From a virus: a DNA stretch of 20,567 bases. The position numbers and the translations under genes are program-made. The stretch is taken from IMG/VR virus record IMGVR_UViG_3300009157_000051, positions 1-20,567 of that record, one strand, 5' to 3'. Shown here one piece after another: positions 512 to 18,656 of this stretch (within the stretch, counting starts at the first letter, position 1; each line of letters starts with the position of its first letter). The notes under the pieces were generated by a model that saw nothing but the letters and a program-made list of their open reading frames with translations, searched no databases and had not been told where the DNA came from.

Positions 512-856
512 TTAATTAATACAGTTGTTATTCCGTTTAAAAATGCGGTCTAAAACAGGCAATGCAGACTGTTTAGATTTCTTATAGCTCTTATTACCCA
601 AATAAGAATGAACGTTTAAGCAATTCCCTTTTAGTGTTTGTTTATATATCATTTCATCTTCAAGTTTTTTAATTTTATCTTCTTCACCTACGGTTATAAT
701 TTCCTTCTTAAAGTTTTCCCAACCAAACTTGGAAATTGCATTATAAAGAGGTTTATCCTGATTACAGCAAGAATGATCGTTCATTCTACGTTTGAAGTCT
801 TTCGTAATACCAAAATAGATTTCATTATCAGGGCTTGTTAATTTGTAAAGATACAT
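512..856 (-). CDS. GIY-YIG family endonuclease (copy A)
   Basis: This 114-residue protein has the GIY-YIG nuclease core near its N-terminus: YLYKLTSPD (2-10), then IYFGIT (13-18) and the FKRRMNDH segment (21-28), which holds the conserved Arg and His. GWENF (45-49) and an acidic helix with Glu66, the likely metal-binding Glu, follow, then a conserved Asn (81). These enzymes make DNA cuts and occur in phages as free-standing homing-type nucleases or repair nucleases. No extra DNA-binding module such as NUMOD is visible, only a short basic C-terminal tail. AAGGAGA six bases before ATG fixes the start. The gene is divergent from the operon at 1343 and is homologous to the protein at 2348-2704. 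The biological target cannot be read from the sequence. Confidence 0.85.
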   Translation of the reverse strand: MYLYKLTSPDNEIYFGITKDFKRRMNDHSCCNQDKPLYNAISKFGWENFKKEIITVGEEDKIKKLEDEMIYKQTLKGNCLNVHSYLGNKSYKKSKQSALPVLDRIFKRNNNCIN

Positions 857-904: not shown

Positions 905-960
905 ATATGCAAATAGAAAACGTTTGACAAAAATTATTCATATAAATAAAAGACTTAATG

Positions 961-1073
961 AAGACGAGAACCTGAATTGGCCCACACAACAACACAATTA
1001 AAGAAAAATAACTAAAAAATATGCACTGACCCCAAATTGGACAATATAATTAACGACAAGAACCTGAATTGGC
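961..1073 (+). repeat. Pair of 21-base direct repeats (GAACCTGAATTGGC core)
   Basis: Positions 961-981 and 1053-1073 share the 14-base core GAACCTGAATTGGC (968-981, 1060-1073) and most of the seven flanking bases, with start-to-start spacing of 92. The box GACCCCAAATTGGAC (1028-1042) and the dyad at 1091-1108 reuse the CC-n-ATTGG pattern. Iteron-like binding sites are the likeliest explanation. Confidence 0.6.
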
Positions 1074-1090
1074 TCTCAAACTAACTCACC

Positions 1091-1108
1091 TGAACCAGGA
1101 TTGGTTCA
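1091..1108. promoter_or_regulatory. Perfect 7-bp-arm dyad, operator-like
   Basis: TGAACCA (1091-1097) and TGGTTCA (1102-1108) form a perfect inverted repeat with a GGAT centre. An 18-bp symmetric site immediately before the 11-bp tandem repeats fits a dimeric helix-turn-helix regulator. The initiator at 1343 and the small HTH protein at 2697 are possible binders. Confidence 0.5.
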
Positions 1109-1117
1109 AATATGTAC

Positions 1118-1150
1118 TCTATATATACACTATATATACACTATAAATAC
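1118..1150 (+). repeat. Three 11-bp tandem repeats (ACTATATATAC type)
   Basis: The units 1118-1128 (TCTATATATAC), 1129-1139 (ACTATATATAC) and 1140-1150 (ACTATAAATAC) follow one another without gaps. An 11-bp period is about one helical turn, so protein subunits would line up on one face of the DNA. The AT-rich content would also melt easily. This is consistent with an iteron/DNA-unwinding element or a stacked operator. Confidence 0.55.
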
Positions 1151-1342
1151 AACGGCTGTTACTACTACAACATATGAATAAGACAGAAAAGCGTGGGAAG
1201 CATAAAATGGCTACGTCTTATTAGGAATTAAATGGACTTGTCTTTAAATGGACCAACCCCAAAATGGGGATTAATTTTTACCCTAAAAAAAGTTTGCAAA
1301 ATCAAAATAAAAGATTACAACTATATATAAGGGGAAAAGAAG

Positions 1343-2137
1343 ATGATATTCAGAATACATAATAACCAATTAAAAGAAGCTAATATTTTAAAGATTTTAG
1401 TTGCTTCAATGAAATATTTGTCAAATGCACAAATTGCAAAAATACTGGGCGTTTCAATATCAACTGTAAAAAGATATAAGAAAGCTGATATACCTAAACC
1501 AGATTATAACGAAAAATATATAGACTTTAATCTGCAACAAATGGGACTGCTTGGTTTAGATGTATATACTTATGCAACAGCTTTAATGATAAGTAGCTTT
1601 TGTAATGGTTTCAAAAGAAATTCAACTTTTGTTTCAATAAAAAGAATGAGTAAAATACTAAACATAGATAAGAGAATAGTATCGAAATCAATAAAGAAAT
1701 TAGGAGATATGGAAATAATAAAAATAGAAACGGATATAGTGCAGGGATATAAGATAAGGTATAAATTAATAATCGAACCATCGTGGGTGAATTCATTCAA
1801 ATATGCACCCAATTATAAAATATTTGGCAATAATGAAAATCTACCAAAAATAAACCAAGGAAAAAGAGAAATAATAGAATTGGAAAATACAGATTACGAA
1901 CCTGAAAAAATTGAGAAACAAATAATGAAATTAGTTGAGAAAAGAGAAGAAAAAGCGACAGAAGTCGAAAAGTTGGACTTTTCAGAAAACTATGAAAAAG
2001 AAAAGTATATAAAAAGAAAAATAGAAGAATTAGGATATGACGGTGAAATAAGTGATTTTGATGAATTTACGCTAAAAGAAACTATCGAGATATTTCAAGA
2101 AATAGAAAAGAAAATGGAGGTGAAAAATGAGATATAA
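1343..2137 (+). CDS. Putative replication initiator / helix-turn-helix DNA-binding protein
   Basis: This 264-residue protein has an N-terminal helix-turn-helix (about 26-47, LSNAQIAKILGVSISTVKRY). A winged-helix-like domain follows (about 68-145) with the pattern STFVSIKRMSKILNIDKRIV...IKKLGDMEIIKI, as seen in replication initiators and replisome-organizer N-domains of phages and plasmids. The rest is a charged, probably helical tail (155-264). The start ATG follows AAGGGGAAAAGAAG. It is the first gene of the plus-strand operon and sits directly after the repeat-rich region, which supports origin binding. It could instead be a transcriptional regulator; no catalytic replication motif is visible. 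Its last 11 bases overlap the next gene. Confidence 0.6.
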   Translation: MIFRIHNNQLKEANILKILVASMKYLSNAQIAKILGVSISTVKRYKKADIPKPDYNEKYIDFNLQQMGLLGLDVYTYATALMISSFCNGFKRNSTFVSIKRMSKILNIDKRIVSKSIKKLGDMEIIKIETDIVQGYKIRYKLIIEPSWVNSFKYAPNYKIFGNNENLPKINQGKREIIELENTDYEPEKIEKQIMKLVEKREEKATEVEKLDFSENYEKEKYIKRKIEELGYDGEISDFDEFTLKETIEIFQEIEKKMEVKNEI

Positions 2138-2315
2138 AGCAATCATCTGTATAGCTGCAATTGTTCTAATAGGTTTAATCTTCCTATTACCTAAAGAACC
2201 TGCAACAAAAGCAAACTTAAATGCTGTGGAAATAACAGCGAAAACTTTAGAAATAACCCTGCAAAATGAAAAGTTAGCAGATAGTTTAAAAAATTTAACC
2301 AAAACTGTCAGGTAA
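2127..2315 (+). CDS. Small single-pass membrane protein with coiled-coil tail
   Basis: This 62-residue protein has an N-terminal hydrophobic segment (about 4-21) after one positive patch (MRYK), then a polar, probably helical stretch rich in A, L, E, N and K (25-62). No signal-peptidase site is obvious, so it is probably anchored in the inner membrane. A very strong ribosome-binding site, GGAGGTG, lies inside the end of the preceding gene, and the start overlaps that gene by 11 bases, so the two are translationally coupled. The family is not recognised. Small anchored proteins in early phage operons sometimes modulate host membrane functions or exclusion, but that is only a possibility. Confidence 0.6.
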   Translation: MRYKAIICIAAIVLIGLIFLLPKEPATKANLNAVEITAKTLEITLQNEKLADSLKNLTKTVR

Positions 2316-2322
2316 CCTGATA
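2306..2322. promoter_or_regulatory. 17-bp dyad, near copy of the capsid/tail leader site
   Basis: TGTCAG-GTAAC-CTGATA overlaps the stop codon of the small membrane protein and lies 25 bases before the GIY-YIG start at 2348. It has the same arm length and 5-base spacer as the sites at 14455-14471 and 18493-18509, with one arm mismatch (TGTCAG for TATCAG). The inner TCAGGT-A-ACCTGA is itself a perfect palindrome. A TATAAA (2321-2326) overlaps its end and could be a -10 element. Confidence 0.4.
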
Positions 2323-2347
2323 TAAAACAAAAAGGAGTAACAGAAAA

Positions 2348-2704
2348 ATGAAAACATCTATATACAAAATATCATCACCAGATGGGAAGTTCTACATAGG
2401 ACAGACAATAGATTTAAAGAGAAGATTAATGCAACACAAGAACCTGAAAAAAGATGACCAATTGCATTTAGACATACAAGAGCTGGGTTGGGAAGTTTTT
2501 AAGATTGAGGAGATTTGTAAATGCCCTGTGGCTATAGCTGATGAAATAGAGACTGCTTTCATTGGATATTACAGAGAACAAGACCCGGAAAACTGCTATA
2601 ACAAGGTAACCACACCATACAATTACGAAGAGAGAAAAAGCAACTTACCAGAAGAACCTAAAGATCGAATCGTAGCAATATTTATGAGAAAAGATAATGA
2701 CTAA
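2348..2704 (+). CDS. GIY-YIG family endonuclease (copy B)
   Basis: This 118-residue protein has the nuclease core SIYKISSPDGKFYIGQT (4-20), then DLKRRLMQH (22-30) with the conserved Arg and His, GWEVF (47-51), Glu68 in the metal-binding position (E..FI) and Asn85. It aligns along its whole length with the minus-strand protein at 512-856, including SPD, the KRR-x-x-x-H block, GWE-x-F and a DRI...R-ND/NN tail, so the two are paralogues. GGAG lies about 11 bases before ATG. Its end overlaps the next gene by 8 bases. It could be a free-standing homing-type nuclease or a host-DNA nuclease; neither can be chosen from sequence. Confidence 0.85.
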   Translation: MKTSIYKISSPDGKFYIGQTIDLKRRLMQHKNLKKDDQLHLDIQELGWEVFKIEEICKCPVAIADEIETAFIGYYREQDPENCYNKVTTPYNYEERKSNLPEEPKDRIVAIFMRKDND

Positions 2705-2975
2705 GAAACAATTTGAAAAATATTACTTGGAAAATGGAGGTAGCGAGACTGCCTCCTATTTTTCTATTTCTCGCAGTCAAGTTTATAAGCTGTTAAAGAA
2801 ATATAAAACGCAAGATAGGAAAGAATATTTGAAAGTAAAAAAGGAAAAATATTTAGATTCATTAATACCAAAAGATGTTGAGGATTATCAGAAGAAATTT
2901 AAACACGTTGGACCTGTGCCTAAATGGTTTTATGAAGGTGTTAAGTATCAAGTAAATAAGGAGTATGTACAATGA
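2697..2975 (+). CDS. Small helix-turn-helix protein
   Basis: This 92-residue basic protein has an N-terminal helix-turn-helix of the resolvase/transposase-like type (about 11-36, with GSETASYFSISRSQVYKLLKKY). A lysine-rich helix follows (37-70), then a short aromatic tail (VPKWFYEGVKYQV). Its ATG lies inside the last codons of the nuclease gene (8-base overlap) and its stop overlaps the glycosyltransferase start by 4 bases (ATGA), so the three genes are translationally coupled. It may regulate transcription from the dyads in this window, but no sequence evidence ties it to a particular site. Confidence 0.65.
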   Translation: MTKKQFEKYYLENGGSETASYFSISRSQVYKLLKKYKTQDRKEYLKVKKEKYLDSLIPKDVEDYQKKFKHVGPVPKWFYEGVKYQVNKEYVQ

Positions 2976-3982
2976 AAGTAAATATGTATCCGGCTGATAA
3001 ACATGGGTGCGGCTATTATAGAATGTATCTTCCTGCTAAATACATTCAAAGAAAAGCAAAAGATATTGAATTAAAGGTGATAGAAGAACAAAGTCATATC
3101 GATTTATTAAATAACCTTGATATAATGTATTTACAGCGTTCTGCATGTAACGAATTATTTAAACACTTACTGTATGCTAACAAACAAGGTGCAATGGTAT
3201 TATATGATGCAGATGATGATTTTTTTAATGTGCCTTTGTTAAATCCATCTTATAACTATTATAATAATGAGATTGTAAAAGCTAATATTGAGACATACTT
3301 AAAGACTGCAAATTGTATAACTGTAAGCACTGAATATTTAAAAAATGAATACAAGAAATATAATAAAAATGTAGTTGTATTGCCAAATTCGATAGATTTT
3401 GAGATGTGGAATGAATATTACAAACAAAAAAAAGAAAATAAGATTGTAATGATATATCCAGCTTCACCGACACATGCAGAAGATATATTTGAGATTGTTG
3501 ATGTATTAATCAGGGTGCTGAAAGAAAACCCGGAAGTTGAGCTACATTCTGTAAATTGGAATTTTACAAAAGCTGATATATTTGATAGTGTAAGAAATCA
3601 AGTTAAACATATACCAGGCAAAACACCTTTTGAATTTGGTTCTTTACTTACACATGGTTCAATTGGAATAGCACCTTTAGCTTATAACAAGTTTAACAGG
3701 TCGAAAAGCAACATCAAATTTTTAGAATACTCAGCTTTGGGAATACCAACTGCAGCAACTGATATTACACCTTACGAGTGCATACAAGAGGGGATTACTG
3801 GATTTAAGATTAAGAAAAACGATAAAAATGATTGGTATTGTGCCTTAACTGAGCTAATAAGAAATGTAGAAATGCGGAAATCGATAGGAAAACAGGCAAG
3901 AGATTATGTATATGAAAACTATAATATTGAGAAAAATGTAGATAAGTGGATAGAAGTGTTTTATACTTTACTAAACAAATAA
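2972..3982 (+). CDS. Glycosyltransferase, GT-B fold (GT4-like)
   Basis: This 336-residue protein would transfer a sugar from an activated donor; the acceptor could be host surface polysaccharide, a virion protein or modified DNA. The N-terminal domain (about 1-150) starts with YPADKHGCGYYRMYLPAKYI and has YDADDDFF (78-85), a block seen in phage-type glycosyltransferases. VVVLPNSIDF (134-143) marks the domain boundary, as in GT4 enzymes. The C-terminal domain has IYPASPTHAED (161-171) and the donor-binding region SNIKFLEYSALGIPTAATD (246-264). The length is normal for the family. It starts with ATGA overlapping the HTH gene. Seroconversion of host surface sugar is a common phage use, but here that is inference. 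Confidence 0.8.
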   Translation: MKVNMYPADKHGCGYYRMYLPAKYIQRKAKDIELKVIEEQSHIDLLNNLDIMYLQRSACNELFKHLLYANKQGAMVLYDADDDFFNVPLLNPSYNYYNNEIVKANIETYLKTANCITVSTEYLKNEYKKYNKNVVVLPNSIDFEMWNEYYKQKKENKIVMIYPASPTHAEDIFEIVDVLIRVLKENPEVELHSVNWNFTKADIFDSVRNQVKHIPGKTPFEFGSLLTHGSIGIAPLAYNKFNRSKSNIKFLEYSALGIPTAATDITPYECIQEGITGFKIKKNDKNDWYCALTELIRNVEMRKSIGKQARDYVYENYNIEKNVDKWIEVFYTLLNK

Positions 3983-4003
3983 AAAATAGTAATTTAGGGT
4001 GGG

Positions 4004-4022
4004 AATACTACAAAATACTACA
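4004..4022 (+). repeat. Tandem AATACTACA repeats before the lipoprotein gene
   Basis: AATACTACA occurs at 4004-4012 and 4014-4022, a 10-bp period, in the 94-base gap between the glycosyltransferase and lipoprotein genes. A two-site operator for a separate promoter of the lipoprotein gene is possible. There is no clear -35/-10 pair. Confidence 0.35.
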
Positions 4023-4076
4023 TCACTTCGGAAACCAGAACCCAAAGAAAATTACCAAATATAGAAAGGTTTTAAA

Positions 4077-4442
4077 ATGAAAAAAATATTTTTTGTTTCA
4101 TTTGTTTTATTAATTTTCTATTCTTGTGGAAATAAACCAAGCAACAACGTAATAGCGGAAAAAGTGAAAAACTATTATTCAACAAGAGATATATCAAGCA
4201 ATATTGGTGATGGAATGGATTGGAGAAATTGTATAATAAAAGATGTAGAGGTAAAAGAGTGGGGAGAAAACAACAGAGTGAGATTAAAAATAAGCGGAAA
4301 CGGAGACAGATATAAATCAACAGGAATATTAACGGGACATGACACATATATAGCTGAAAAATTAGGGAATCAGGATTTTTATTTCCAAGCTGAGTTTACT
4401 ATAAAGAAAAATAACTTTGGAGAATGGGATATAAGCTATTAG
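4077..4442 (+). CDS. Predicted lipoprotein
   Basis: This 121-residue protein has a lipoprotein signal peptide: MKK, a hydrophobic core (4-15) and a lipobox-like FYSC with the lipid-bearing Cys17, followed by GNKPSNN. The mature part (18-121) has one mixed alpha/beta domain rich in charged residues and ends in a beta-like stretch, FYFQAEFTIKKNNFGEWDISY. The bare Ser-Cys box resembles Bacteroidota lipoproteins. The start follows AGAAAGG. The gene sits alone between a 94-base gap and a bidirectional terminator, next to the lysis genes but on the opposite strand, which is typical of a moron-type accessory gene. Superinfection exclusion is a common role for such phage lipoproteins, but nothing in the mature domain proves it. 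Confidence 0.7.
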   Translation: MKKIFFVSFVLLIFYSCGNKPSNNVIAEKVKNYYSTRDISSNIGDGMDWRNCIIKDVEVKEWGENNRVRLKISGNGDRYKSTGILTGHDTYIAEKLGNQDFYFQAEFTIKKNNFGEWDISY

Positions 4443-4477
4443 TAAATGATACCCCGCGTTTACATTCTCCTTAACAA

Positions 4478-4507
4478 AAAAGCCAGTGAAAACTGGCTTT
4501 TGTTTTT
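4478..4507. terminator. Bidirectional rho-independent terminator
   Basis: AAAAGCCAGT... pairs with ACTGGCTTTT around a GAAA tetraloop (AGCCAGT 4481-4487, GAAA 4488-4491, ACTGGCT 4492-4498, plus A-T pairs outside). T-rich tails occur on both strands, TTTTGTTTTT on plus and TTTTTTG on minus. It lies exactly between the convergent lipoprotein and endolysin genes and ends both transcription units. Confidence 0.9.
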
Positions 4508-4508
4508 A

Positions 4509-13868: not shown

Positions 13869-14408
13869 TTATGTAGATTTAACAGTGTAATATTTTTCAG
13901 CGGCTACTATGTAAGCGGAAGCAGCTGCTTTTGCCCAGGTAGGAACCGAAGCGGGGGTTATGGCAGTAGCGTTACACTGAGGAATGATTTTAATTTCAGG
14001 TCTGCGACCCGGGGAATCTGATTTATATGAACTATCAATAGTAGCAATAGCTATAAATCTTTCTTTTATTTTACTATCAGAATCTTCACCTGCATTCATA
14101 AAGATTGCAAAGTAAGTTCCTTGAGTTTCGTCTTTTAAAAATGTTTCTGTAGCAGCATCGTCTTGTAAAGATGTGATAGACCAAGAAGTTTTTACTTCCT
14201 CTAAATCTGTTGCTACTTGCTGTCCACTTTCATCGATAATAGGAGTAGAACCTCTGCCCCATTCGAAAGTGCTTTTTTCTCTGTAAACACCGTCATGCCA
14301 CGTATCAGCCTGAGATAAATCAGAACCGTCTTCTTGAACTCTCTTATAAGCCCATTTTTGTCCACCATCTTTAGTAATAGCAGAGCGGTTAAATGTTAAT
14401 TCAGCCAT
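13869..14408 (-). CDS. Major tail protein
   Basis: This 179-residue protein would form the tail tube. It has the composition of a tail-tube beta-sandwich: a short N-terminal arm (MAELTFNRSAITKDGGQKWAYKRV), then beta segments such as STFEWGRGSTPIID, EEVKTSWSITSLQ, GTYFAIFMNAGE and RFIAIATIDSSYKSDSPGRRPEIKIIPQC, and an Ala-rich tail (155-179). No signal or membrane segment is present. Gene order, directly before the frameshifted chaperone and tape measure, supports the call strongly. It has a long 5' leader with no Shine-Dalgarno, a dyad shared with the capsid leader, and its own 3' hairpin, as expected for a protein made in hundreds of copies per virion. Confidence 0.85.
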   Translation of the reverse strand: MAELTFNRSAITKDGGQKWAYKRVQEDGSDLSQADTWHDGVYREKSTFEWGRGSTPIIDESGQQVATDLEEVKTSWSITSLQDDAATETFLKDETQGTYFAIFMNAGEDSDSKIKERFIAIATIDSSYKSDSPGRRPEIKIIPQCNATAITPASVPTWAKAAASAYIVAAEKYYTVKST

Positions 14409-14534
14409 ATTGATTGATTGTTATTAGGTTTGTTGAAATAGTTTGTTTTGATTGTATCAGGTTTTCTGATAGTAGCGGGCAAAAAAATTCCCTCTAATTA
14501 ATAATACTTCAGATACAATCAATAGCAAAATTGT
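14409..14534 (-). promoter_or_regulatory. Major tail gene leader with conserved hairpin/dyad
   Basis: On the minus strand this leader contains TTAATTA, then TTTTTTTGCCC, the dyad TATCAG-AAAAC-CTGATA (14455-14471), and AAACTATTTCAA before the start codon. The same elements occur in the same order in the capsid leader. A longer inverted repeat, 14512-14522 against 14448-14458 (11 bp), shares bases with the dyad, so the two foldings exclude each other. It may be a late promoter with operator, or a structured 5' UTR. Confidence 0.6.
14455..14471. promoter_or_regulatory. 17-bp dyad TATCAG-N5-CTGATA (tail leader copy)
   Basis: TATCAG-GTTTT-CTGATA on the plus strand has perfect 6-bp arms and a 5-base centre. 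It matches the capsid-leader site at 18493-18509 in both arms but not in the centre. The arms are 11 bp apart centre to centre, one helical turn, as expected for a dimeric regulator. It could equally fold as an RNA hairpin. Confidence 0.6.
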
Positions 14535-16364
14535 TTATTCTATACCTGCTCCAATTGCAGTTAAATAGGTTTCTATGAGGGTATTCTTTATAAGAATCTC
14601 AGATTTTGTAAGACCACTACCGATATATGCGTGTGAGTATTCCCTCACAGCAAAACCATAAGGATTGTTACTTCCATCATTAATAGCAGAAATATAAATT
14701 GATTTATCTATTAAGCCTGAAGAAGAGCTGGAAAAATTGTTAACATGGGTACTACCATTTTTATAAGAAGTGATATTAGTGGAATTTAATCTAACAAGAT
14801 CCCAATAACCTTGCGAGTTTGTGGAAACACCAGATACTGATTGATTACCACCATTTAAAATATATAAAGAGATATTACCAGAATAACGTGAAACTATTCT
14901 TACACGAGCACCACCACCGCCTGAACCACTTGCACCCATATCATAACCAGCGTCACCACCAGATGCATAATTTGTGCGGCTATAAATACCAATTGATGCA
15001 GAATTTTGTGTGAAATTAACACCGTTAACAGATGGGATATAGTTAGTATTTAAATAACCAGAAGTGCCATTAGAAATTAAACCACGGTCAATTGTGAATG
15101 ACATTACACCATTAACAGTGCAGTTATGAGAATTCTTTATCCAGTTTAATAAAGCTTCACCATTATTATTAGAATGTGAAGCGAACATATAAAAAGCGTC
15201 TAATTTATTCCAAATTCCATAAGCTTTCAAATCTTTAATAAGATTATTTATTAATACAATTCTATCACTACATGGTTGTGTAGTCATTCGTGCTAACAAA
15301 GCTGTTGTCTCAGGTTCGTATTGATTTATATTAACTGTGAAAGAACGGGTTGATGACCAGTTGCTATTTGTATTGGAATTTTTGCTTCTGACTGACCAGT
15401 AATAAGTTGTGCCATCAGATAAACTATAATCATCAGGAATTGTATATGAACTATTAACAAGATTATTTTCTCTTAAAATTAATGTAGAAAAATCACTTGC
15501 TGTAGATAACCTGAAATCATATGTATCTGCAAAACTTGAATAATTCCAGTTAAAGTCTTGTCTATTTATTCCGTTTTGAAATCCATCCGTTGGAGAGATT
15601 AAAACAGGAACAACTGGAGGGTCTATGGTTGTTTCAAAACTGAAAACAGAAGACCATTCACCATTACCACGTTCATTTATACCACGAACACGCCAATAAT
15701 ATTGAGTTGTGTAGTTAAGCGAAGCCGTAAAAGAATTTATTGCAATAGATTCATCTGAAATTATATGTGAAAAAGAATTATCTGTAGCTATTTGAATTTG
15801 ATATGTATCTGCATTAGTAACTTGAGACCAATGAAATTCAAGAGAATAAGGAACGTTAGATAGTTCATCAACAGGATTTAAAAGAGTTGAGCTGTAAGGA
15901 ACTAATGAAGCAAGAAAATCATAATATTCTACCTTTAAAAGAAAACCTAATTCTTTAAGGTTATTGTTAAGATAAGGAGATACTTCACTAATTGTATATT
16001 TCTGAACACCATTAATATCAAGTATTCTACAGGTTTTAGAAGAATCTATTGAACCATCAAGATTAAAAAATCTTTTAAAATCCTCAATTATTAATTCAGC
16101 ATCATCAGTTGTATTAACAGAATTTATATAAATTAAGACTAATACATCTAAAGATTTCTTATCAATTTCTAAACCTTCGATTTCACTAAGATTAATTTCA
16201 TTACCTAACTGAATACAAACAGCGGGAAATGAATTAAAACTACCTGAAGTTGAATAACCCTTATTAACAATAGCAATTGAGTTATGATAACCATTCGCAG
16301 TTGTGATATTTTGAATATCATTATAAAGACTATCAAGGATTTGCTGACGGATGGTATTAGCCAT
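14535..16364 (-). CDS. Tail terminator-like protein fused to FN3 and lectin-like domains
   Basis: This 609-residue protein has four parts. Residues 1-150 resemble small tail-terminator/completion proteins (helix, then beta strands with SFPAVCIQLGNE and SLDVLVLIYI, and a C-terminal KVEYYDF). About 158-247 and 252-347 are two FN3-like beta domains, each ending in YYW.VR....W SS..SF. Residues 355-609 match a known phage appendage module: ALLARMTTQPCSD, WNKLDAFYMFASHS, a Gly-rich core and a lectin/LamG-like fold. The position between connector and major tail gene is that of the terminator, normally about 120-160 residues, so the extra 450 residues are probably displayed outside the neck. It overlaps the connector gene by 8 bases. 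Confidence 0.75.
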   Translation of the reverse strand: MANTIRQQILDSLYNDIQNITTANGYHNSIAIVNKGYSTSGSFNSFPAVCIQLGNEINLSEIEGLEIDKKSLDVLVLIYINSVNTTDDAELIIEDFKRFFNLDGSIDSSKTCRILDINGVQKYTISEVSPYLNNNLKELGFLLKVEYYDFLASLVPYSSTLLNPVDELSNVPYSLEFHWSQVTNADTYQIQIATDNSFSHIISDESIAINSFTASLNYTTQYYWRVRGINERGNGEWSSVFSFETTIDPPVVPVLISPTDGFQNGINRQDFNWNYSSFADTYDFRLSTASDFSTLILRENNLVNSSYTIPDDYSLSDGTTYYWSVRSKNSNTNSNWSSTRSFTVNINQYEPETTALLARMTTQPCSDRIVLINNLIKDLKAYGIWNKLDAFYMFASHSNNNGEALLNWIKNSHNCTVNGVMSFTIDRGLISNGTSGYLNTNYIPSVNGVNFTQNSASIGIYSRTNYASGGDAGYDMGASGSGGGGARVRIVSRYSGNISLYILNGGNQSVSGVSTNSQGYWDLVRLNSTNITSYKNGSTHVNNFSSSSSGLIDKSIYISAINDGSNNPYGFAVREYSHAYIGSGLTKSEILIKNTLIETYLTAIGAGIE

Positions 16365-16938
16365 ATATATTTATTAACCTATATCTATTAAGTTTTTTGT
16401 GCCATTCAGGAATCATATCTTTAAAAGATTTACCTTCACTTGTGGTACTATTGAAGTTTTTATTAGACAACCCTAATTGCGATTGACCTGAAAGAGGACT
16501 ATTGAAAAACTTTAAAGCTGACATTTCTATGCAAACACCTTTTAAATCATCCGGTGCATCCGTGAAACCGCCATCAAAAACAACTTCAATGTTCTTTCTG
16601 CCTTTAGGGAAAGTATAATATTTTAGCAGTATAAGGGAATTGGATATAACAATAGCTGAATCTTCAATTGTATCAGGAGAATTAAGCAAATCAACAAAAG
16701 AATTGTTATATAAATACTTTATTGATGAAATAGAAAAAACAGGGTGAGCATTAAGAAATATTTCATTTTTACCATTACCATTAATATATTCAGTATATTC
16801 ACCTGCTGTAAGACTTCTATTGCAATAGCTTTCAATATCTTTCACAGATTCATTAATACATTTTTGTAAGAAAGTATCTTTAGATGTATCTTCTGCATTA
16901 ATATTAAGATATGTTTTAAATTCTGAGACTGTAATCAT
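16357..16938 (-). CDS. Head-tail connector (gp6-like adaptor)
   Basis: This 193-residue protein is mostly helical at the N-terminus: MITVSEFKTYLNI, then DTFLQKCINESVKDIESYCNRSL (22-44), the signature opening of gp6-like DNA-packaging adaptors that bind below the portal. The middle is beta-rich (HPVFSISSIKYLYNN and KNIEVVFDGGF), followed by DAPDDLKGVCIEMSALKFFNS, another conserved helix of the family, and a flexible tail. Gene order (capsid, small proteins, this, terminator, major tail) agrees. It shares one base with the zinc-ribbon gene (TAATG). Confidence 0.85.
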   Translation of the reverse strand: MITVSEFKTYLNINAEDTSKDTFLQKCINESVKDIESYCNRSLTAGEYTEYINGNGKNEIFLNAHPVFSISSIKYLYNNSFVDLLNSPDTIEDSAIVISNSLILLKYYTFPKGRKNIEVVFDGGFTDAPDDLKGVCIEMSALKFFNSPLSGQSQLGLSNKNFNSTTSEGKSFKDMIPEWHKKLNRYRLINIYG

Positions 16939-17120
16939 TATGAGTAGTCAGTTTTGTAGAAACCAGAACCTTTGAAAATAAAAGATTGAATATTACCAAT
17001 TAGTCTTTTCAAAGTGTTTTGCTTGCATTGAGGACATTCTACCAAAGGTTTTTCATTAATAGTTTGTAACTCTTCGAAAGAATGGTTACAAAAAGAACAT
17101 ACGTATTGATAGAATGGCAT
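16938..17120 (-). CDS. FmdB-like zinc-ribbon protein
   Basis: This 60-residue protein begins MPFYQYVCSFCNHSFEE and has two Cys pairs, Cys8/Cys11 and Cys29/Cys32, that would bind one zinc. The pattern YxYxCxxCxxxFE followed by CPxC and a terminal GSGFYKTDYS matches FmdB-family zinc ribbons. Such proteins occur in bacterial regulators and occasionally in phage head modules, where the role is unclear; DNA, RNA or protein contact is possible. It shares one base with genes on both sides (TAATG), so it belongs to the head operon. Confidence 0.8.
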   Translation of the reverse strand: MPFYQYVCSFCNHSFEELQTINEKPLVECPQCKQNTLKRLIGNIQSFIFKGSGFYKTDYS

Positions 17121-17281
17121 TATTTAGTTTTGAAACTTTTAAAAGATTTGTCAACGAAAAGTGAAATAAAACCAAGGTCTAAATACTTCTTTGCTTCGTT
17201 ATCATAAAGCCATATATATTCGTTTGGTTGATGGATAATACCTAAATGATAAAATCTTTGTATTACTTTGTAATTTTTCAT
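17120..17281 (-). CDS. Small head-module protein, unknown function
   Basis: I start this gene at ATG 17281 (MKNYKVIQRFYHLG), giving 53 residues. An upstream TTG at 17305 would place the start inside the capsid gene's terminator hairpin. The sequence follows the pattern of short phage proteins between capsid and connector genes: a beta strand ending in F, a Gly-containing turn, a helix with EAKKYLDLG, and a final hydrophobic FIS. It has no membrane segment or signal. It shares one base with the zinc-ribbon gene. No Shine-Dalgarno is visible. Confidence 0.6.
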   Translation of the reverse strand: MKNYKVIQRFYHLGIIHQPNEYIWLYDNEAKKYLDLGFISLFVDKSFKSFKTK

Positions 17282-17325
17282 AGAAAAAGAAATAGAGCTG
17301 AGCAAGGAGCAAACCCAGCTCTATT
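17281..17325 (-). terminator. Rho-independent terminator of the major capsid gene
   Basis: AATAGAGCTG (17291-17300) pairs perfectly with CAGCTCTATT (17316-17325), a 10-bp stem with a 15-base loop. On the minus strand it starts about 9 bases past the capsid stop and is followed by TCTTTTTCTA. This should end or reduce transcription after the capsid gene, so downstream genes would be made at lower levels or from another promoter. Confidence 0.8.
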
Positions 17326-17334
17326 AGTAAGGGT

Positions 17335-18456
17335 TTAGCTTGTCTTTGATAAAAGAATTGAGAATGCAGATGGATTTACAATTTGAATATCAATTGATTC
17401 ATCGAATCTGAAACCAGTTAACGCTTTTGCGAACATATTATCTGAACCTATTGTAGCGTGTTGAGATGTAGAAATACCGAAACCATTTCTTTCTGCTAAG
17501 TAAGCATTCTTTAGGTCACCGAAAACAATATATTTTGTTCCAACAGTTGTTGTAGCTGTAGAAGGCAATACAGAAGTAGTTCTAACAGGATACCCTAAAA
17601 TCATAGGATTTGCAGAATCAAAAGCACCCATAAATGGGAACTTCAGATTGTTAGCGTCTGCAAGCTGTAAAATTAAGCTTAATACTGATGGATGCATATA
17701 CCAAGCTGCGTTTGGAAGAGTAACTGCGGGAATACCATAAACACAATCCAAAAGTTTACCATAAGTTAAAGCTGCTGCTAAAGTACCTGACAATTCGACT
17801 GCGTTTGTACCAACAACTGCAGAGATACCTGTAATAGGAGAACCAGTACCAACAAAACCTTGTGTATCTTCTTGTTTAGCGAAATCATTTGCTGCTACTT
17901 CTGCTAAGATACTAATAAGGTCTACACCACTATCTTGTAACAATTCATTTGAAACAGGAGTTAATTTTGCATATGTGTGTCTTGTAAATGTTGTTACACC
18001 ATAAGTATCATTACCAACTGTACCTGCTGTATTTTCATCAACCCATGCACCTGAAGATTGAGTAGCAAGCTTAGGCATTGTTAAGGTCTTACTATTCATC
18101 TTTAAGTTAGTAGAATATTTTCTAAACAAGCCATAAATATCTAAAAGCCTTGTTACTTCAGCTTGGAATTCAACTGGTACTAAATATCCACCTGCTGCGT
18201 CTGTACCTTCAACGTTATAAGCTTTGGCGAAAGGATTACCAGAATTAACAAGAACTTCACCTAAGAATTTTTTAAATTTAGCATTCTTGGCTTGTGTTTC
18301 ATTCATACCTTTGGTATTTACTTCATCTGTACCAGGAAGCTGTGCGTGTTTCACATCTATTTTATCTATACCGTATTCTTTTACGGCACTATCAATGGTT
18401 TCAGCTATATAGCTTTTAATGTTTTCCATTGAGTCTAATTTTATTTCGTCAGACAT
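17335..18456 (-). CDS. Major capsid protein (HK97 fold)
   Basis: This 373-residue protein builds the icosahedral shell. About 1-75 is a short charged helical N-terminal region (MSDEIKLDSMENIKSYIAET), which may act as a removable delta/scaffold domain. GGYLVPVEFQAEVTRLLDIYG (from about 89) opens the folded HK97 part, followed by AWVDENTAG, KLTPVSNELLQDSGVDLISILAE and a C-terminal RNGFGISTSQH. I choose ATG 18456; a TTG reading from 18519 would start inside the leader hairpin and its first residues do not look like protein. No Shine-Dalgarno precedes it, but the leader is A-rich. It has its own terminator and a leader matching that of the major tail gene. Confidence 0.95.
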   Translation of the reverse strand: MSDEIKLDSMENIKSYIAETIDSAVKEYGIDKIDVKHAQLPGTDEVNTKGMNETQAKNAKFKKFLGEVLVNSGNPFAKAYNVEGTDAAGGYLVPVEFQAEVTRLLDIYGLFRKYSTNLKMNSKTLTMPKLATQSSGAWVDENTAGTVGNDTYGVTTFTRHTYAKLTPVSNELLQDSGVDLISILAEVAANDFAKQEDTQGFVGTGSPITGISAVVGTNAVELSGTLAAALTYGKLLDCVYGIPAVTLPNAAWYMHPSVLSLILQLADANNLKFPFMGAFDSANPMILGYPVRTTSVLPSTATTTVGTKYIVFGDLKNAYLAERNGFGISTSQHATIGSDNMFAKALTGFRFDESIDIQIVNPSAFSILLSKTS

Positions 18457-18545
18457 TATATTTTCTTTCTTGACATAGTTTATTTGCCGTATATCAGATA
18501 TGCTGATAGCAGAGGGCAAAAAAGGGGAGTTAATTAAGATTTGAT
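18457..18545 (-). promoter_or_regulatory. Major capsid gene leader with conserved hairpin/dyad
   Basis: The minus strand shows, in order, TTAATTAA, TTTTTTGCCC, the dyad TATCAG-CATAT-CTGATA (18493-18509), GGCAAA and AAACTATGTCAAG before the start codon. TTTGCC/GGCAAA (18483-18488 and 18515-18520) encloses the dyad and gives a nested hairpin. TTGCCC followed 17 bases later by TGATAT could be a -35/-10 pair with the dyad as operator. The same parts occur before the major tail gene. Confidence 0.6.
18493..18509. promoter_or_regulatory. 17-bp dyad TATCAG-N5-CTGATA (capsid leader copy)
   Basis: TATCAG-ATATG-CTGATA on the plus strand has perfect arms, and the outer TTTGCC/GGCAAA pair encloses it. 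It lies 37 bases upstream of the capsid start codon. Confidence 0.6.
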
Positions 18546-18656
18546 TTCTACATTCGGAATATCTCCAGTTACTATTTCACCTAATATCTCAAGTAGCTTT
18601 GCGGACTACCTAATATCTCCAGTGAATTCACCTAATATTTCAGTGAATAAGAAATC
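18546..18656 (-). other. Repeated protein-like extension after the protease stop
   Basis: In the same frame as the prohead protease, codons beyond its TAA (18657) continue as DFLFTEILGEFTGDIR, then TAG, then SAKLLEILGEIVTGDIPN and EIKS-like residues to a TAA. The two parts are copies of one unit (EILGEFTGDI and EILGEIVTGDI). They differ by a synonymous GAA/GAG change and by one inserted codon, so the frame is kept. No start codon with a ribosome-binding site is apparent. It could be a stop-readthrough tail, a decayed gene part or a regulatory RNA. Confidence 0.5.

Follow-up and report, generated by a model that had tools for sequence, protein, structure and literature searches.

Why do two structural genes of one phage, that for the capsid and that for the probable tail tube, begin behind the same leader? 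The question arises in IMG/VR record IMGVR_UViG_3300009157_000051, which we analyzed over its whole length of 20,567 bp (the window; G+C 31%) and which has no completeness estimate and may be a fragment. An early block on the plus strand (1343-4442) converges here on a late block that runs on the minus strand from 20512 down to 4509. The two blocks are separated by the hairpin AAAAAAGCCAGTGAAAACTGGCTTTTGTTTTT (4476-4508), which is flanked on both sides by A- and T-runs and looks like a bidirectional terminator. The late genes follow each other in the order portal, protease, capsid, two small proteins, head-tail adaptor and a tail terminator with Fn3-like domains, then the probable major tail protein, a 163-aa protein, a 53-aa ORF, a gp10-like neck protein and the tape measure, and finally further genes as far as a predicted endolysin. 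The tail-terminator gene (14535-16364, minus strand) encodes 609 aa in an unusual fusion of a tail-terminator-like N-terminus with Fn3/Ig-like domains; the C-terminal part has relatives among functionally uncharacterized phage proteins, some of which are annotated as putative YapH. Most late genes abut or overlap, and non-coding gaps of 200 nt and 126 nt precede the capsid gene and the probable tail gene, respectively.

Additionally, we noted some features of the record outside the two leaders. Repeated CCTGAATTGGC, CCCAAATTGGAC and CCAGGATTGG elements together with a 34-nt repeat are found at 960-1270 (plus strand), upstream of the replication-like gene at 1343, and are possible operator or origin repeats. 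By eye only, an inverted repeat around TTTTCAAAATATGC and GAAAATGATTTTTCAAAAT (~884-906), upstream of a GIY-YIG gene (512-856, minus strand), appears operator-like. Shine-Dalgarno-like sequences were seen at six of the seven early genes and at five of the 18 late genes. Because the late genes mostly lack them, as is reported for the genes of Bacteroidota (PMC6847099), our guess for the host is this phylum, a guess that is weakened by the Shine-Dalgarno-like sequences of the early genes.

The identity of the two downstream genes was addressed with profile libraries and remote homology. The first gene after the capsid leader (17335-18456, minus strand, ATG at 18456) matches NCBIfam TIGR01554 major_cap_HK97 (E 1.1e-54) and the PHROG major head protein, and its assignment as an HK97-type major capsid protein is firm, in agreement with the sequence-only reading of this locus. 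That reading had also named the first gene after the tail leader (13869-14408, minus strand, ATG at 14408) as major tail gene, a name that we retain as probable: the 179-aa product gave no family match in the profile libraries, and its position before the tape measure together with weak similarity to remote homologues suggests a major tail (tube) protein. The homologues are located in two prophages of presumed Bacteroidota genomes, L071 (22-24%) and L209 (26-27%), and the L209 homologue is encoded upstream of a gene that weakly matches the tape measure. A single-sequence AlphaFold model of the tail protein reached a pLDDT of 37 and was unusable.

The two leaders align without a gap over 58 nt, 45 of which are identical, and the spacing is fixed throughout the block. 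In the capsid leader (18466-18523, minus strand) the block reads TTTTTTGCCC TCTG C TATCAG CATAT CTGATA TACGGCAAAT AAACTAT G TCAA GAAA, and in the tail leader (14429-14486, minus strand) it reads TTTTTTGCCC GCTA C TATCAG AAAAC CTGATA CAATCAAAAC AAACTAT T TCAA CAAA. Both leaders with their dyads are thus present as first described. The dyad of the tail leader, TATCAG-AAAAC-CTGATA, lies at 14455-14471 (minus strand) as given, and that of the capsid leader, TATCAG-CATAT-CTGATA, initially placed at 18493-18509, is correctly located at 18492-18508 (minus strand). All 13 differences fall outside TTTTTTGCCC and the two palindrome arms, which are invariant, and the centers of the dyads vary.

Can such a block arise by chance? 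The strict core TTTTTTGCCC-N4-CTATCAG-N5-CTGATA is found at exactly two sites in the window (14455-14486 and 18492-18523, minus strand), and shuffles expect none. Local alignment of the two intergenic regions furnished a score of 51, while the highest score among 5000 paired dinucleotide shuffles was 36 (Gumbel-extrapolated p ~6e-8). Furthermore, the tail leader matches the capsid leader at 49 of 65 positions, compared to 35 of 65 for the next best 65-nt match in the window. The leader that the capsid gene shares with the probable tail-tube gene is real and non-random. Within it, AAACTAT-N-TCAA has evidential weight only as part of the aligned block, as this motif alone is not rare in the window when one mismatch is allowed. 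TTAATTA, which had been counted among the shared components of the leaders, is rejected as a component of the block, since it occurs in the window at background-level frequency (15 copies vs 21.5 expected); it is also one base out of register between the leaders. A coding origin of the block was rejected as well, since the differences are not spaced with a codon periodicity and the block stands in a different frame to each of the two ATGs, and so was an intrinsic terminator, none being called there.

In the same intergenic region, from the protease stop to the capsid leader (18555-18642, minus strand), we observed four near-copies of (T/G)GAGATATTAGG with 0-2 mismatches and spacings of 22, 29 and 25 nt. 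This motif has 10 matches in the window vs 3.5 expected, a number reached in 0 of 100 shuffles. The repeats look DNA-level, because the spacings break a single reading frame, and they are possible upstream binding sites; before the tail gene they were not seen.

The identical arms around variable centers had been taken as a sign of a constrained site. With 13 differences distributed over 58 positions, identity of the arms alone is only mildly unlikely (p = 0.032, post hoc), and only together with TTTTTTGCCC does the argument become stronger (p = 7e-4, again post hoc). With only two clear copies, it is difficult to distinguish constraint from a duplication of moderate age. An inert or recombinational repeat would be either a duplicated leader or a module-boundary sequence that promotes capsid-to-tail exchange, with no regulatory role in both cases. 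Indeed, the copies form direct repeats on either side of a module, at a distance of 4037 bp. The differing centers could be simple drift, and the identity of the arms taken alone has a p of only 0.03. However, the copies end near the start codons of the two genes that are expected to be most highly expressed, and the invariance is concentrated in TTTTTTGCCC and the arms. Site-specific recombination between the copies is unlikely because the dyad centers differ. Altogether we regard an inert or recombinational origin as improbable. The data support a constrained leader shared by the capsid and probable major tail genes, and with this the earlier interpretation is partly supported.

If the block is constrained, it may act as DNA or as RNA; the sequence-only reading had named both, a late promoter-operator and a 5' UTR element. 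The same arms that form a palindrome also fit an RNA hairpin, which speaks against a promoter. As an RNA element, the transcribed UAUCAG/CUGAUA hairpin and a single-stranded UUUUUUGCCC in the 5' leaders would serve as translational operator, processing site or stabilizer. Both leaders are able to form the 6-bp stem with a 5-nt loop. In the capsid leader, an outer stem UUUGCC/GGCAAA brings the hairpin to -10.3 kcal/mol (z -3.15), while the core hairpin of the tail leader reaches only -5.0 kcal/mol and the outer stem is absent there (no GGCAAA). The tail leader contains instead an 11-bp perfect inverted repeat TTGATTGTATC/GATACAATCAA (14522-14512 and 14458-14448, minus strand), a length reached in four of 1000 shuffles, and a second partner at the start codon, so that alternative folds are possible; this long pairing, in turn, has no counterpart in the capsid leader. 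We also noted that the 11-bp repeat (14448-14522, minus strand) overlaps the right arm of the dyad and could thereby compete with the dyad hairpin, and that the left arm can pair with the start-codon region. Against an RNA element stand the arms of the two copies, which are identical and show no compensatory change, and the Rfam covariance models, which at the gathering threshold gave 0 matches in the window. The lambda nut sites, in which boxA is followed by a boxB hairpin with a 5-nt loop, resemble the block in having a conserved single-stranded box and then a short hairpin with a 5-nt loop. Here, however, there is no boxA-like sequence, the loops differ between the copies, and the position is directly before structural genes. 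An RNA function is a possibility that we hold to be rather doubtful.

The sequence TTTTTTGCCC is invariant although its GGCAAA partner exists only in the capsid leader, and it is thus not kept for that pairing. Between the two copies the arms keep their sequence and do not covary, as would be the case for DNA that a protein binds, and the additional pairing is not shared. This slightly favors a DNA site over an RNA hairpin, although the data do not separate the two. The most likely reading, to which we give an even chance, is a phage-specific transcription control site, a promoter or operator. One sequence stands before late genes of this phage in two copies, at the capsid gene and at the probable tail gene. 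The block would be a late-operon promoter region with the 17-bp palindrome TATCAG-N5-CTGATA, to which a dimeric DNA-binding protein may bind. With one copy ahead of the capsid gene and another ahead of the probable tail-tube gene, it would provide both with extra transcription over the upstream read-through. In this arrangement, TTTTTTGCCC would be the upstream promoter element, with the palindrome between it and the start point; AAACTAT-N-TCAA would lie at or just past the start point, and from there an A-rich leader without structure would extend to the ATG. The promoter would require a phage factor, and the expression of both genes would rise.

Which polymerase could read such a promoter? 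TTGCCC-N17-TGATA(C/T) is present in both leaders in a sigma-70-like geometry, but the -10-like hexamers are poor (TGATAC/TGATAT, or TACAAT/TATACG at 20-bp spacing). No sigma-70 promoter (TTGACA-N16-18-TATAAT, at least 9 of 12 matches) was called at either block. In T7, the phage RNA polymerase recognizes non-palindromic 23-bp sites, the class III (late) promoters, of which phi10 precedes the capsid gene. Like the block, these promoters are short, repeated, phage-specific sequences directly before highly expressed structural genes; in contrast, the core is palindromic here and only two clear copies exist, and no polymerase gene was recognized in the record. Bacteroidota sigma-ABfr promoters have the form TTTG/TAnnTTTG (PMC6847099). 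The TTTTTTG of the leaders could be a -33 element of this type, but no TAnnTTTG lies at the right distance in either leader, and the complete pattern (TTTG-N17-24-TAnnTTTG) was absent from both. Since neither of these two host-type consensus promoters is found at the block, transcription from it would need a phage factor. A regulator of the block could conceivably be the small possible helix-turn-helix protein of the early operon (92 aa, 2697-2975), whose Pfam scores are sub-threshold.

The early operon may also contain a degenerate third copy of the element, TTTAACC-AAAA-CTGTCAG-GTAAC-CTGATA (2294-2322, plus strand), which lies 25 nt before the ATG of the early GIY-YIG gene (2348-2704) and overlaps the stop of the preceding ORF. 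Its dyad (2306-2322) has one mismatch; over the entire window, 0.08 sites with at most one mismatch are expected. When a trimmed box, TTTGCCC, is included, the copy has 3 mismatches in 20 fixed bases, which was reached in 0 of 100 shuffles, while the comparison with a weight matrix of the two leaders was non-significant (p 0.21). We therefore treat 2294-2322 as a possible but unproven third copy. One may speculate about a two-site regulon for the two most abundant virion proteins, in which one phage regulator would bind TATCAG-N5-CTGATA before both genes and, more weakly, a third site in the early operon, and would balance the supply of capsid and tail apart from the rest of the late operon; we judge this to be a long shot.

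Next to these comparisons within the window, we searched for relatives and for further copies. Neither Rfam nor IMG/VR nor ~85,000 prokaryotic genomes contained a match to the element, and exact and relaxed motif scans of viral contigs and prokaryotic genome contigs gave chance or coding matches only. No relatives were detected when capsid and portal peptides were compared with the viral contigs and the capsid with the genome contigs. The tail protein gave one unrelated match (L003) among the viral contigs and nothing among annotated phages. Profile and low-GC pattern scans retrieved relatives at no more than 38% capsid identity, none with the element, and capsid searches in ~1,200 genomes (the phylum and two orders, presumed Bacteroidota) gave only distant prophages. 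In the 26 distant relatives with both genes recognized, the protease-capsid gap is at most 162 nt and mostly below 50 nt. Among the distant capsid loci screened, the best score of a capsid leader against another leader was 32, compared to 51 here, and no leader duplication of similar strength was found; at a capsid identity of 38% or less, these relatives are too remote to prove or disprove a function. To judge from the databases searched, the phage is an orphan, unclassified and with no close relatives found.

A repeated element before start codons is known from the cluster K mycobacteriophages, whose SAS/ESAS sequences combine a GGGATAGGAGCCC box at translation initiation sites with upstream 17-bp inverted repeats and are of unknown function; the non-structural genome half carries 11-19 copies of SAS (PMC3203893). 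The block shares with them the location upstream of start codons and the combination of a conserved asymmetric box with an inverted repeat of variable spacer. It differs in that the box lies upstream of the dyad, ~60-75 nt from the ATG, and before structural genes; neither the GGGATAGGAGCCC box nor its placement is found in the two leaders. The sequence of the element is new, while the kind of phage regulatory arrangement is already known. If the block is a late promoter, it shows an uncultured tailed phage boosting exactly its capsid and tail-tube genes and provides a motif by which its kin could be searched for. In the case of an RNA operator, two virion proteins would be under a common translational control. 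In either case, the block is a short and defined target for reporter experiments.
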